In this document: positions 1,178-5,643 of the stretch, one piece after another
How the letters are laid out: each line of letters begins with the position of its first letter
Position numbering within the stretch: position 1 is the first letter of the stretch
Virus record (IMG/VR): IMGVR_UViG_3300044994_000223
Coordinates: 1 to 24,762 of that record
DNA: 24,762 bases
Direction: 5' to 3' (one strand)
From: a virus
Notes under the pieces: model-generated
Told to the model about the DNA's origin: nothing
The model's database searches: none
What the model saw: only the letters and a program-made list of their open reading frames with translations
Made by a program: the position numbers and the translations under genes

Positions 1178-2671
1178 ATGAACGCGATCCCCTCCCTCGC
1201 GCTGCGGCTGCCGCCCGCCAATGTCGAGGCGGAGCAGGCGCTTCTCGGGGCGATCCTCGCCAACAACAAAGCCTATGAGCGCGTCGCGGAGTTCCTGCGC
1301 CCGGAGCATTTCGCCGATCCGCTGCATGGGCGGATCTATGCCGCCATCCAGCGGCGGATCGAAGCCGGTCAGCTCGCCGATGCGGTCTCCATCCGCCCGG
1401 AGTTCGAGGCGGAGCAGGTCGAGCAGCGCGGCGAGAACGGCAAGATCACCACCGTCACGGGCGCGGTCTATCTCGCGCGGCTGCTGCGCGCCATGGTCGG
1501 CGTGATCAATGCCGGCGAATATGGCCGCGTGATCCACGACGCCTGGCTGCGCCGCGGCGTGATCGAGGTGGCGGAGGAACTCATCAACCGCTGCCATGGC
1601 CGCGCGGAGCCCGCGCAGGAAGGGCGGCAGATCCTCGCCTGGGGGGATGAGGCGCTGCTCGCCCTGGCGGAGGACCGGCGCGAAAGCGGGCTGCGCGACG
1701 GCGCGGCGGTGGGCGATGCCATCCTGCGCGAGGTCCAGGCCGCGATGCAGCGCGAGGGCGGGCTCGCGGGCCTCACCTGGGGCCTGCGCGGGCTCGATCG
1801 CATGACGGGCGGGCTGCGGCCGGGCCAGTTCGTGCTGATCGCGGGGCGGCCCTCGATGGGCAAGACCTCCATGGCGCTGCGCATCTCGATCGGCGCGGCG
1901 GAGGCGGGCGCGCGGGTGCTGTTCGTCTCGGCCGAGATGCGCGCGCAGGACGTGCTGGCGCGCGCCGTGGTGGCGCGGGCGGGCCTGCCGCTCTCGGCCT
2001 ATACGCGCGGCGGCGTCGAGGCGGAGGGGCCGGAGGGCAAGCGCTTCCGCAGGCTCCGCCAGGAGGAGTTCGACCGGCTGCACGCGGCCACGCGCGAGAT
2101 GGCGGCGCTGCCGATGATGTTCGACGACGAAAGCGTGACGGTGCAGCAGATCCGCGCGCGGGCGCGGATGATGCAGCGCGCCAGGGGCGGCGGGCTCGAC
2201 CTGATCGTGGTGGATTACCTCGGCCGGCTGCGCGCGAGCGAGACGGTGCAGCGCTTCGGGCTCAACAGCATCGTCACCGAGCTGTCAGCGGGGCTGAAGG
2301 ACCTGGCCAGGCAGCTCGGCGTGCCGGTGGTGGTGCTCTCGCAGTTGTCGCGGGAGGTGGAGAAGCGCGACGACAAGACGCCGCTGCTCTCCGACCTGCG
2401 CGATTCCGGCAGCCTGGAGCAGGATGCGGATGTCGTGATCTTCCTCTACCGCGCGCACTACTACCTGGTCCGCGCCGAGCCGAAGCGCGGCGCGCGCGAG
2501 AAGCAGGAAGCCTACGACGCGCGCATGTTCGAGTGGATAGAGGCGATGCGCCGCGAGAAGGGCCACGCCACCGCGATCATCGCCAAGCAGCGCCAGGGGC
2601 CCACGGGGCCGGTGCGGCTGCGATGGAACGACGAAACCGCGCAGTTCTTCGACGAAGAAGGGGGGTGGTGA
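1178..2671 (+). CDS. dnaB: Replicative DNA helicase, DnaB family
   Basis: A 497-residue protein of normal DnaB length. The N-terminal domain (about 10-160) begins with the family signature PPANVEAEQALLGAIL. The RecA-like domain (about 195-495) has Walker A GRPSMGKTS (223-231), Walker B DLIVVDYLGR (341-350), motif H3 VVLSQLSREVEKR (385-397) and motif H4 DLRDSGSLEQDADVVIFLYR (406-425). DnaB forms a hexameric ring that unwinds the fork ahead of the polymerase. A phage-encoded copy makes replication less dependent on the host helicase. ATG 1178 fits the family N-terminus. An ~82-base gap precedes the gene and shows no clear regulatory element. Its stop overlaps the next ATG (TGATG at 2669-2673). 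Typical of a complete, functional gene. Confidence 0.95.
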   Translation: MNAIPSLALRLPPANVEAEQALLGAILANNKAYERVAEFLRPEHFADPLHGRIYAAIQRRIEAGQLADAVSIRPEFEAEQVEQRGENGKITTVTGAVYLARLLRAMVGVINAGEYGRVIHDAWLRRGVIEVAEELINRCHGRAEPAQEGRQILAWGDEALLALAEDRRESGLRDGAAVGDAILREVQAAMQREGGLAGLTWGLRGLDRMTGGLRPGQFVLIAGRPSMGKTSMALRISIGAAEAGARVLFVSAEMRAQDVLARAVVARAGLPLSAYTRGGVEAEGPEGKRFRRLRQEEFDRLHAATREMAALPMMFDDESVTVQQIRARARMMQRARGGGLDLIVVDYLGRLRASETVQRFGLNSIVTELSAGLKDLARQLGVPVVVLSQLSREVEKRDDKTPLLSDLRDSGSLEQDADVVIFLYRAHYYLVRAEPKRGAREKQEAYDARMFEWIEAMRREKGHATAIIAKQRQGPTGPVRLRWNDETAQFFDEEGGW

Positions 2672-3036
2672 TGGCGCGCAGGAAAGCCACGAACGGGCGC
2701 GATCCCGGCAGCGGGGACAGCGCGGCCACGGGCGATCTGCTGCTCCGCTACATCGAGCGTGCGGAGCGCCTGGCCGAGGAGATGCAGGCGCTCCGGGACG
2801 ACATGAAGGAGGTTTTCGCGCAGGCGAAGGCGGCCGGATTCGATGTCCGCACCATGCGCAGCATCATCCGGGAACGCGCCCTGTCGGCAGAGGAGCGGGC
2901 GGAGCGGGAGGCGCTGCTCCAGAGCTACCGCGCCGCCCTCGGCATGCTCGGCGACACGCCGCTCGGAGAGGCGGCGCGGGCGCGCTTCGAGCGCGCGATG
3001 GGCGGCCCGCCGGCGCGGGCGGCGCCGGCCGTCTGA
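2671..3036 (+). CDS. GapR-like (DUF2312) nucleoid-associated protein
   Basis: A 121-residue protein. Residues ~22-95 match the GapR/DUF2312 pattern: LLRYIERAERLAEEMQALRDDMKEVFAQAKAAGFDVRTMRSIIRERAL, then a second helix ending SYRAALGML. Host GapR is a small coiled-coil protein that forms tetrameric clamps on overtwisted, AT-rich DNA and helps replication by working with topoisomerases. Here it sits between a helicase and the presumed initiator, so a role in phage replication or in handling supercoils at the fork is the natural inference. The Gly/Ser-rich N-terminus and a C-terminal tail rich in Ala/Pro extend beyond the conserved core. The start is fixed by the TGATG overlap with dnaB; GTG-containing longer versions upstream lie inside dnaB and are unlikely. 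Confidence 0.85.
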   Translation: MARRKATNGRDPGSGDSAATGDLLLRYIERAERLAEEMQALRDDMKEVFAQAKAAGFDVRTMRSIIRERALSAEERAEREALLQSYRAALGMLGDTPLGEAARARFERAMGGPPARAAPAV

Positions 3037-3125
3037 CGGCATGAGCACGGCCGGCGGACCGCGTGCGCAACCGCGCGGCCCCGGCCGATCGGAAACCCAG
3101 GAAACCAGAGAAACCGGATCTGACC

Positions 3126-4103
3126 ATGGCACGTCGTTGTCTCTGCTCCCGCCTCATGGACGCGCTGCGCGCGGACCCGCGCCTGGCCACGCTGCCGCTG
3201 GCGGCGCGGATGGTCTTCCTGCTGCTGGCCGAGGCAGCGGCGGAAACCCAGGAAACCGGATGGATTCCGTTTGCGGAACCGCGTCGGATTGCGCTGCTGA
3301 TCCGCTGCACGGAAACCGAGGCCGAAACCCATCTTGAAACCCTGATCGCGGAAGGGCTGATCCTGGCCGAGCGGGGTGGGCTCGGCGTGCCGATCGTGCG
3401 GGAGGCGGCGGATCGCGCGGCCGTGGCAAGGCGGAACGGCGCGGCTGGCGGGCGGCCGAGAAAGGGGGAGACGCCGCAGCAGGCCTATGCGCGCCGCCAG
3501 GGCTCGCTGCCGCTGCCCATCGCGGGCGGGAAACCCAGCGAAACCCAGCATGCGAAACCGGCCGCGCCTACTACTACTACTACTACTACTACTAGTACCA
3601 GTAGTGGTGGTGGTGTGACCTTCCAGCTTGGGAAGGAAACCGAATCCATCCCTGGTTCTGGTAAGGTGGTCTGTCGCGCGCGCGAGGCGGAAACCCAGGA
3701 ATGGGTTTCGCTCGGGGTCGAGGTGGCGGAACTCGCCGGGCTCGACGGCGCTCGTGGCGGCTTCGACTACCGGCCGGTGCAGGCCTGGCTGAACGCGGGT
3801 TATCCGGCCGAGGCGATCCGCGCGGCTGTGGAGCGCATCGCCGCCAGGCCCGGCTACGATCCGCTCCTGGTGCGGACGCTGCGCTATTTCGACGGCGCGG
3901 TCGCCGAGGAGGCGGCGCGGCTCAAGGCCGAGGCCGAGGCGGCGCCCCGCCCCCGCACGGCCGAGGATTTCGAGCGCGAGGCGGCGGAGCAGCGCGAGCT
4001 GGAGGACTGGGTGCAGGCGGTGCGTGAGGGGCGGGACGTGCCGATGCCGGCCCGGATCGCCGCCGCTGGCGCCAGGCTCCAGGCGCAGCGCAGGGCGGCG
4101 TGA
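3126..4103 (+). CDS. Phage replication-initiator-like protein (lambda O-like layout)
   Basis: A 325-residue protein. Residues 1-105 look like a winged-helix domain: LPLAARMVFLLLAEAA, a TGWIPFAEPRRIALLI helix, a repeated ET-rich helix and a wing-like ILAERGGLGVPIV. A basic stretch GGRPRKGE follows, then a linker with eight threonines and Ser/Gly. The C-terminal part (from ~190) has GVEVAELAGL and AGYPAEAIRAAVERIAARPG, a pattern seen in phage replication-region proteins, and a charged helical end. It lies after the helicase and GapR-like genes, and its own DNA carries the GAAACC array. These points suggest an origin-binding initiator by analogy to lambda O; no specific family match is certain. 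ATG 3126 was chosen; GTG 3063 would add 21 low-complexity residues encoded by the leader repeats. Confidence 0.65.
   Translation: MARRCLCSRLMDALRADPRLATLPLAARMVFLLLAEAAAETQETGWIPFAEPRRIALLIRCTETEAETHLETLIAEGLILAERGGLGVPIVREAADRAAVARRNGAAGGRPRKGETPQQAYARRQGSLPLPIAGGKPSETQHAKPAAPTTTTTTTTSTSSGGGVTFQLGKETESIPGSGKVVCRAREAETQEWVSLGVEVAELAGLDGARGGFDYRPVQAWLNAGYPAEAIRAAVERIAARPGYDPLLVRTLRYFDGAVAEEAARLKAEAEAAPRPRTAEDFEREAAEQRELEDWVQAVREGRDVPMPARIAAAGARLQAQRRAA
3568..3617 (+). repeat. CTA triplet microsatellite with adjoining hairpin arm
   Basis: Nine consecutive CTA triplets (3568-3594) are followed by GTACCAGTAGTGGTGGTGGT. The tract encodes eight threonines followed by Ser/Gly in the initiator-like protein. 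ACTACT and AGTAGT pair perfectly around a 6-nt loop. At RNA level the outer ACU triplets can also pair with GGU triplets through U-G wobbles. About two thirds of the CTA tract is A/T, by far the most AT-rich stretch nearby. It lies between iteron clusters, as the AT-rich unwinding segment does in lambda ori. Confidence 0.7.
3690..3709. repeat. Inverted repeat of the iteron motif
   Basis: GAAACCCA (3690-3697) and TGGGTTTC (3702-3709) form a perfect 8-bp inverted repeat with a 4-nt centre. It is the last and only inverted copy in the GAAACC array, so it may be a distinct site for dimer binding or the boundary of the origin. Confidence 0.6.
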
Positions 4104-4786
4104 TGGCCGCCGCGATGAAGCCGCTTGACGGCGGGGTCACGGCCGCGGTAGCCATGGGGCGTGATTCGTGGAACGCCGCTGGTGGGGCCGGGGCGCGCCA
4201 CATCACCGCCGGCCCTTCGGGGCCCGCGCCAGCCGAGGGCCAAGTGCCCCCGGTGCTACCGCATTGGGCGGATCCCGACGCACCCTGGATCGTGATCGAA
4301 CACCGCGCCGATGCCGGCGCGCAGGTGCGCAATGACCTCCGCCGCAACGGGTTTGAGGTGCACTGGCCGCGCGAGGTCGTGCGCATCCCGGGCCGCGACG
4401 ATTCGCTGCGGCCCTACTTCCCGGGCTACATGTTCGCGCTGCCGGTCTCGGATCGCGCCTCGTGGCATCAGCTCAAGGAACGCGGGCAGTTCTCGATCCA
4501 CGTCCTCGGCCTGCGGGAGTTGGGGCGTCCGGCGCGGCCGCCGGCGGGCTTCGTCGCGGCGCTGATCCAGCGGGCTGGCGGCGATATCGACGGCGTCATT
4601 CCCGCCAAGCAGGATGAGATCGCGCGCCTGAAATCGGGGGATCGGGTGCGCGTCACCGCCTTCGGGCGTGACGACTGGAACGGCGTCTTCGTGGCCGAGC
4701 GCGGCAAGCGGGTCGAGGTGCTGCTGACGCTGTTCGGCCGGGATGCCCCGATCCTGCTCGAAGCGCGGCATGTGCGGAGGGTGTGA
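4103..4786 (+). CDS. NusG/RfaH-like transcription antitermination protein
   Basis: A 227-residue protein with a ~58-residue Ala/Gly/Pro-rich leader, then an NGN domain (about 61-125): PWIVIEHRADAGAQVRNDLRR, GFEVHWPREVV and the diagnostic RPYFPGYMFALP. A C-terminal KOW domain follows (about 178-227), with SGDRVRVTAFGRDDWNGVFV and a VEVLLTLFGR strand. NusG-type proteins bind the clamp of RNA polymerase, suppress pausing and couple it to Rho or the ribosome; RfaH paralogues read through operons after recruitment by a DNA element. A phage copy directly before the late region suggests a role in late-gene read-through (inference). Start ATG 4103 overlaps the preceding TGA; the poorly conserved leader leaves a later start possible, but I saw no better one. 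Confidence 0.85.
   Translation: MAAAMKPLDGGVTAAVAMGRDSWNAAGGAGARHITAGPSGPAPAEGQVPPVLPHWADPDAPWIVIEHRADAGAQVRNDLRRNGFEVHWPREVVRIPGRDDSLRPYFPGYMFALPVSDRASWHQLKERGQFSIHVLGLRELGRPARPPAGFVAALIQRAGGDIDGVIPAKQDEIARLKSGDRVRVTAFGRDDWNGVFVAERGKRVEVLLTLFGRDAPILLEARHVRRV
4211..4224 (+). other. Short hairpin with cUUCGg tetraloop
   Basis: GGCCC (4211-4215) and GGGCC (4220-4224) close a TTCG loop with a C-G pair, the exceptionally stable tetraloop type. It lies in the low-complexity 5' part of the NusG-like gene. It may slow ribosomes or polymerase there, or be incidental in GC-rich coding DNA. Confidence 0.35.
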
Positions 4787-5593: not shown

Positions 5594-5643
5594 CCCCACC
5601 GGGAGTGATTCGGACCCCGACAAGGGGCGGGATTTTGGTGGGG
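5594..5643 (+). other. Nested inverted repeats in the gap before the ParB-domain gene
   Basis: The gap 5554-5685 is one of only two sizeable non-coding gaps in the late half of the window. It has an outer 7-bp inverted repeat, CCCCACC (5594-5600) with GGTGGGG (5637-5643). It also has an inner CCCC/GGGG pair (5615-5618, 5624-5627) around GACAA, followed shortly by TTTT (5633-5636). It could be a weak terminator, an antitermination site or an operator. No promoter was recognised. Confidence 0.3.

Follow-up and report, generated by a model that had tools for sequence, protein, structure and literature searches.

The initiator gene and its GAAACC array

The window (the whole stretch of 24,762 bases analysed in this study) is a viral contig from IMG/VR and appears to belong to a phage of Acetobacteraceae-type bacteria. 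Its replication initiator gene (3126..4103, + strand) most likely starts at the ATG at 3126 and encodes a protein of 325 aa, which in the AlphaFold2 model is composed of an N-terminal winged helix (wHTH, residues 6-90), a disordered linker (pLDDT <50 at residues 135-184) and a helical C-terminal domain (residues 184-325). The genes 5' of the initiator encode the phage DnaB replicative helicase (1178..2671, + strand; PF03796/PF00772, phrog_19) and a GapR-like DNA-binding protein (2671..3036, + strand; PF10073, E=1e-24). A gene for a protein with a NusG-like N-terminal domain (4100-4786; PF02357; phrog_6386, transcription antiterminator) is located directly 3' of the initiator, the gene for a ParB_N protein is at 5605, and the terminase genes lie 3' of the initiator/NusG-like region. 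The DnaB gene is found 5' of the initiator in most loci of family A, the family to which the window belongs, and the GapR-like gene, which in the window stands between DnaB and the initiator, is also present in many of them. Cellular GapR binds overtwisted DNA, and a phage copy beside a candidate origin is worth a look.

The window initiator matched phrog_270, 'replication initiation protein', weakly (E=0.003), and by sequence profile its wHTH is similar to that of CRP/FNR. The closest solved folds to this wHTH included plasmid RepA N-terminal domains of the staphylococcal pSK41 type (4pql, 4pt7 and 5kbj; rmsd about 2.5 over 82 residues, 10% identity), whose Z of 8.5-8.9 was tied with that of CRP-type wHTHs and may reflect only the common wHTH arrangement. 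A Foldseek search with the initiator model gave no significant match (best E 0.04), and the structure comparison effectively covers the wHTH.

A motif count on both strands of the window showed that 13 direct copies and one inverted copy of GAAACC are gathered between 3092 and 3709, with only six further copies on either strand outside this array. Dinucleotide shuffles of the window gave a mean of 4.2 copies and a maximum of 10 (100 shuffles), that is, approximately 0.1 copies per 618 bp on both strands. Three direct copies with 9-bp spacing (3092, 3101 and 3110; cluster 3092..3115) form the leader cluster directly 5' of the ATG, and the remaining 10 direct copies and the inverted copy are inside the initiator gene. 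Two copies (3243 and 3252; 3243..3257) are located in the wHTH coding region, where they are read as Glu-Thr-Gln-Glu-Thr, and three copies with 12-bp spacing (3312, 3324 and 3336; 3312..3341) fall where the predicted recognition helix is encoded (ETEAETHLET, residues 63-72). The linker cluster (3530, 3540 and 3554; 3530..3559) has three copies in two reading frames within the disordered-linker codons, a single copy (3636..3641) lies on the far side of an AT-rich element, and the last direct copy (3690) is followed by the inverted copy GGTTTC at 3704 (3690..3709). All these clusters and the single copy are on the + strand.

The spacings of the array are 9, 9 / 9 / 12, 12 / 10, 14 bp, and the 16-mer GGAAACCCAGGAAACC was found twice, 151 bp apart. 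The first-pass annotation of this DNA had reported the 13 direct copies and one inverted copy, a handful of copies elsewhere, spacings of 9, 9 and 12 bp, a recurring 16-mer, and a placement in the leader and in two reading frames of the gene, and all of this was recovered in our counts. The in-gene spacings of the family are mostly multiples of 3 because the copies occupy codon pairs, and therefore the 9 and 12 bp should not be taken as DNA helical phasing.

Relatives of the initiator and selection on the DNA

Single-protein searches with the window initiator against viral contigs, genome contigs and phages returned no relative. The family was opened by a DNA scan with the 15-mer GAAACCCAGGAAACC, which gave eleven contigs with an initiator homologue (phmmer 1e-22 to 1e-56), each carrying its own array. 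Because this retrieval had used the motif, the search was repeated without it, and protein profile searches of viral contigs, genomes and 299 Acetobacteraceae genomes gave a motif-independent set. The homologues were located in prophages and viral contigs, and every named host belongs to the Acetobacteraceae (Neoroseomonas, Roseococcus, Paracraurococcus, Pseudoroseomonas, Komagataeibacter, Gluconobacter, Gluconacetobacter, Novacetimonas and Acetobacter). They form two families, A (about 300 residues, the window type) and B (about 400 residues), which can be aligned by profile over most of their length. The family B initiators correspond to phrog_32575, whose function is listed as unknown. For example, PhiKM1_210 (LC644974.1, 11168-12379) and PhiAP1_230 (LC644972.1, 8729-9901), both annotated as hypothetical, are family B initiators with five and four sites, respectively, and an AT-rich linker. 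The phages phiKM1 and phiAP1 are inducible temperate phages of vinegar bacteria (PMC8566455), and replication is not mentioned in the paper describing them.

The low-GC matches of the 15-mer were rejected, as they are collagen-like GNPGNP proteins in which GAAACC is driven by the peptide. A scan for triple GAAACC gave, among the matches listed, at least eight new loci with initiator-like genes versus none for the GAAACT control; this result is only suggestive, and four of the eight loci are close relatives of each other. In the distant initiator-like genes L413, L428, L442 and L444, the linker has a variable number of Arg-Glu-Thr-Gln repeats, which are a 12-bp tandem containing GAAACC at the DNA level. 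In L041 (2458-3065, reverse complement), GAAACCCA units about 50-60 bp apart alternate with GACCGTCGAGCCCGGCC; this array was not accepted as a family member, its repeat being different, wider-spaced and unlike the initiator arrays.

The synonymous codons were shuffled within each gene with the protein and the codon usage kept, which is a conservative procedure, since codons of the array itself remain among those shuffled. In a set of 40 genes there were 298 sites, whereas 500 shuffles averaged 91 and never exceeded 117. The 43 genes found without the motif contained 288 GAAACC/GGTTTC sites, versus 90 expected and a maximum of 112 in 300 shuffles, and 40 of these 43 genes were individually significant. 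When one gene was kept per 70%-identity cluster (27 clusters), there were 177 sites versus 57 expected. Among all 6-mers, GAAACC/GGTTTC was in the top two for over-representation. The negative control, a set of 52 O-like initiator genes from other Pseudomonadota (phrog_678, phrog_270), contained 40 sites versus 31 expected; therefore, GAAACC is not a feature shared by O-like genes in general.

Repeats of this kind could also arise from the protein, if helices and linkers rich in Glu-Thr/Val-Ser were written in preferred codons. It is true that 184 of the 226 in-gene copies on the + strand encode in-frame Glu-Thr, that the recognition helix has conserved Glu-Thr positions, and that unrelated collagen-like phage proteins have peptide-driven GAAACC runs. 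However, the site numbers exceed the expectation from synonymous shuffles, and the Glu-Thr of the conserved GGRPxxGET, an internal control in the same genes, is written GAAACC in 0 of 37 cases. The corresponding fractions were 78/86 in the wHTH and 58/62 in the linker of family A, 37/46 in the linker of family B, and 6/14 in the C-terminus. Moreover, family B has no Glu-Thr in the helix, yet it has linker sites on both strands, and a concerted switch to GAAACT was found in one array (see below). As a sufficient explanation, the peptide effect is refuted by the shuffles, the GGRPxxGET control, family B and the GAAACT switch, and we regard it as extremely improbable.

Between close relatives within family B, codons are retained more often in array columns (81%) than elsewhere (59%). 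In L160 and L189, also of family B, the peptide GVSVSKPVSGF is changed to DLGFETGFEV and the DNA there still has GGTTTC/GAAACC, and in this distant family as such, which includes phiKM1 and phiAP1, the sites are kept in other peptides, frames and orientations. The GAAACC array is thus neither chance nor a peptide by-product. The first-pass annotation had claimed that selection acts on the DNA and not on the peptide, and had named relatives that keep the Glu-Thr peptide and lose the DNA repeat as the finding that would speak against it; the relatives, with the GGRPxxGET control, gave the opposite result and keep the motif beyond codon usage and protein sequence.

Array layout, AT-rich element and motif switch

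In family A, the sites occupy two locations, the linker and the wHTH codons (among them those of the predicted recognition helix), and 28 of 31 genes have sites in both. In family B, the sites are located in the linker only, in the order of inverted cluster, AT-rich stretch and direct cluster. In the AlphaFold2 models of both families, the linker array and the AT-rich stretch fall in disordered-linker codons. The window does not have the inverted cluster that most relatives have ahead of the recognition-helix cluster. The inverted clusters of relatives often face direct clusters, as would be the case if the repeats acted in RNA, either as GGUUUC/GAAACC hairpins or as sites of an RNA-binding regulator. 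However, the ratio of direct to inverted copies is 13:1 in the window and 8:0 in L157, so pairing arms are not required, and copies switch strand at the same place between relatives. A role in RNA is therefore very unlikely.

The AT-rich stretch of the window (3569..3628, + strand), which consists of (CTA)n followed by AGT/GGT codons, is a candidate DNA-unwinding element; it falls inside the array and was absent from the first-pass annotation. It has 55% A+T in a contig of 28% A+T and is the highest-AT 60-mer of the contig. By nearest-neighbour energy it is also the least stable 60 bp, at -76.8 kcal/mol versus a mean of -101, and its AT-richness goes beyond synonymous shuffles (p<0.004). The same was found for the AT-rich linker in 34 of 39 genes, with 5 of 39 not significant. 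The linkers also show an excess of CTAG and GANTC, which is plausibly a consequence of AT-richness and is therefore not put forward as a finding. The first-pass annotation had also proposed cumulative GC skew as a check; there was no switch near 3.1-3.7 kb and no usable signal on this 24.7-kb linear fragment.

The origin could instead lie elsewhere, with the array serving as an operator through which the initiator or another phage regulator controls transcription of the replication genes. In the window, as in several relatives, a cluster is located directly before the start codon (leader copies were also found in L147, L149, L156, L175, L176 and L177), and the wHTH resembles CRP-type regulators. 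However, the leader copies are missing from most relatives and from all of family B, and the sites are concentrated around the AT-rich stretch, as far as 700 bp into the gene. We consider it unlikely that the array is an operator and nothing else. The roles of origin and operator are compatible and not exclusive, and the leader cluster, which only a minority of relatives have, may be an operator.

Clustered GAAACC pairs, looked for in seven whole genomes, were confined to initiator genes. Of the genes in the left arm of the window, the initiator alone was detected near the arrays in both families, and no homologue of the window DnaB, GapR or ParB proteins was detectable at the family B loci. 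One bacterial genome has two initiators, of which L181 carries 10 GAAACT and 1 GAAACC and L194 carries 5 GAAACC. This indicates that the motif tracks the initiator rather than the host, and that a host factor or host codon bias is not the cause. L202, in which GAAAGC is found where other members have GAAACC, is a weaker second example of a motif switch. Alternatively, the sites could serve in segregation or chromatin and be bound by a host protein or by a different protein of the phage, such as a GapR-like or ParB-like one; the GapR-like gene that adjoins the initiator and the ParB_N protein encoded nearby would fit this. We give this explanation very little credence, as the family B arrays are kept without a detectable GapR-like or ParB-like neighbour, and one host genome contains both a GAAACC and a GAAACT array, located in separate initiators.

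As a tentative idea, which we hold to be possible but rather doubtful, the recognition helix might be written in its own binding sites, so that protein and origin would form one module. A third-base change from GAAACC to GAAACT, which is silent in Glu-Thr codons, could then pass from copy to copy along the array as the protein adapts, so that one bacterium would harbour replicons of different specificity. If this is true, the arrays of L181 and L194 and the GAAAGC copies of L202 would be snapshots of specificity switches.

A candidate replication origin and known systems

The O protein of phage lambda is a winged-helix initiator, and in its domain layout the linker is encoded by the origin. 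Studies have shown that lambda and the Stx phages P27 and 933W have their origin midway along the initiator gene O, as iterons with an adjoining AT-rich tract (PMC7466680, PMC6022878); in lambda, the iterons are four inverted repeats of 18 bp and the tract measures 39 bp (PMC6022878). The window likewise has candidate iterons and an adjoining AT-rich tract inside an initiator gene. Unlike in lambda, the units are shorter, two-way and spread over the leader, the wHTH codons and the linker: the arrays of this study have 5-14 units of six to nine bases in both orientations, and the linker holds sites and the AT tract, yet further sites are in the wHTH codons and the leader.

The replisome organisers ORF13 of TP901-1 and Rep2009 of Tuc2009 bind direct repeats in their own gene, which are the origin (PMC8965321). 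The likeness to the window is that the repeats are in the gene's own sequence; the hosts differ, being lactococcal, and the systems are likened by design and not by sequence. The plasmids pSK1 and pSK41 are cited as having an iteron origin inside the rep gene (cited in PMC3155836). In the repABC plasmid p42d of Rhizobium etli, oriV is located in repC around an AT-rich stretch, silent changes of its A+T abolish replication, and repC is without iterons (PMC3155836). This is also an alphaproteobacterial initiator gene that holds its own origin around an AT-rich stretch, whereas in the window the iterons are the main feature.

In this study, we believe, with a probability of roughly 0.8, that 3092-3709 contains the iterons and the unwinding element of a replication origin inside the phage's own initiator gene. 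The first-pass annotation had suggested such a lambda-O-like origin with short, dispersed iterons, and at the level of sequence the suggestion is supported by the selection on the DNA and by the adjoining AT-rich element. From the features of the array and the lambda, TP901-1, pSK41 and repC systems, we infer that the N-terminal winged helix of the initiator would bind GAAACC in either orientation in the leader, the wHTH codons and the linker codons, and that several assembled initiator molecules could melt the adjoining AT-rich stretch at 3569-3628. The C-terminal domain may assist in recruiting the phage DnaB helicase to the melted strands, and the window DnaB is presumed to be loaded at the candidate origin. 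A point against the origin reading is that sites 6 bp apart, which are common in some relatives, cannot all hold separate winged helices.

An origin inside the initiator gene is already a known design; the new elements are the family itself, a short unit that is used in both directions and extends into the wHTH codons, and a natural motif switch. The GAAACC repeat family, which is kept across dozens of related prophages, appears to be undescribed; a literature search, which had limited coverage and is weak evidence, found no paper pairing GAAACC with phage iterons. For temperate phages of the Acetobacteraceae (Roseomonas-type, Komagataeibacter, Gluconobacter and Acetobacter), whose initiator genes are currently annotated as hypothetical, an origin and an initiator can now be proposed at base resolution. 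With dozens of variants available in nature, among them a motif switched within one host genome, the co-evolution of initiator and origin becomes directly testable.

Synonymous-codon shuffling can reveal origins hidden in coding sequence, and in-gene origins may be common and findable in this way. Among the O-like genes of the negative control (L463-L514), some have other over-represented hexamers, for example in L472, L465, L474, L471 and L511; these hexamers were CGTTAC (9 copies), AATCCG/CGGATT (8 copies), GGTGCA (7 copies), CACCCC (12 copies) and GGACAC (8 copies).
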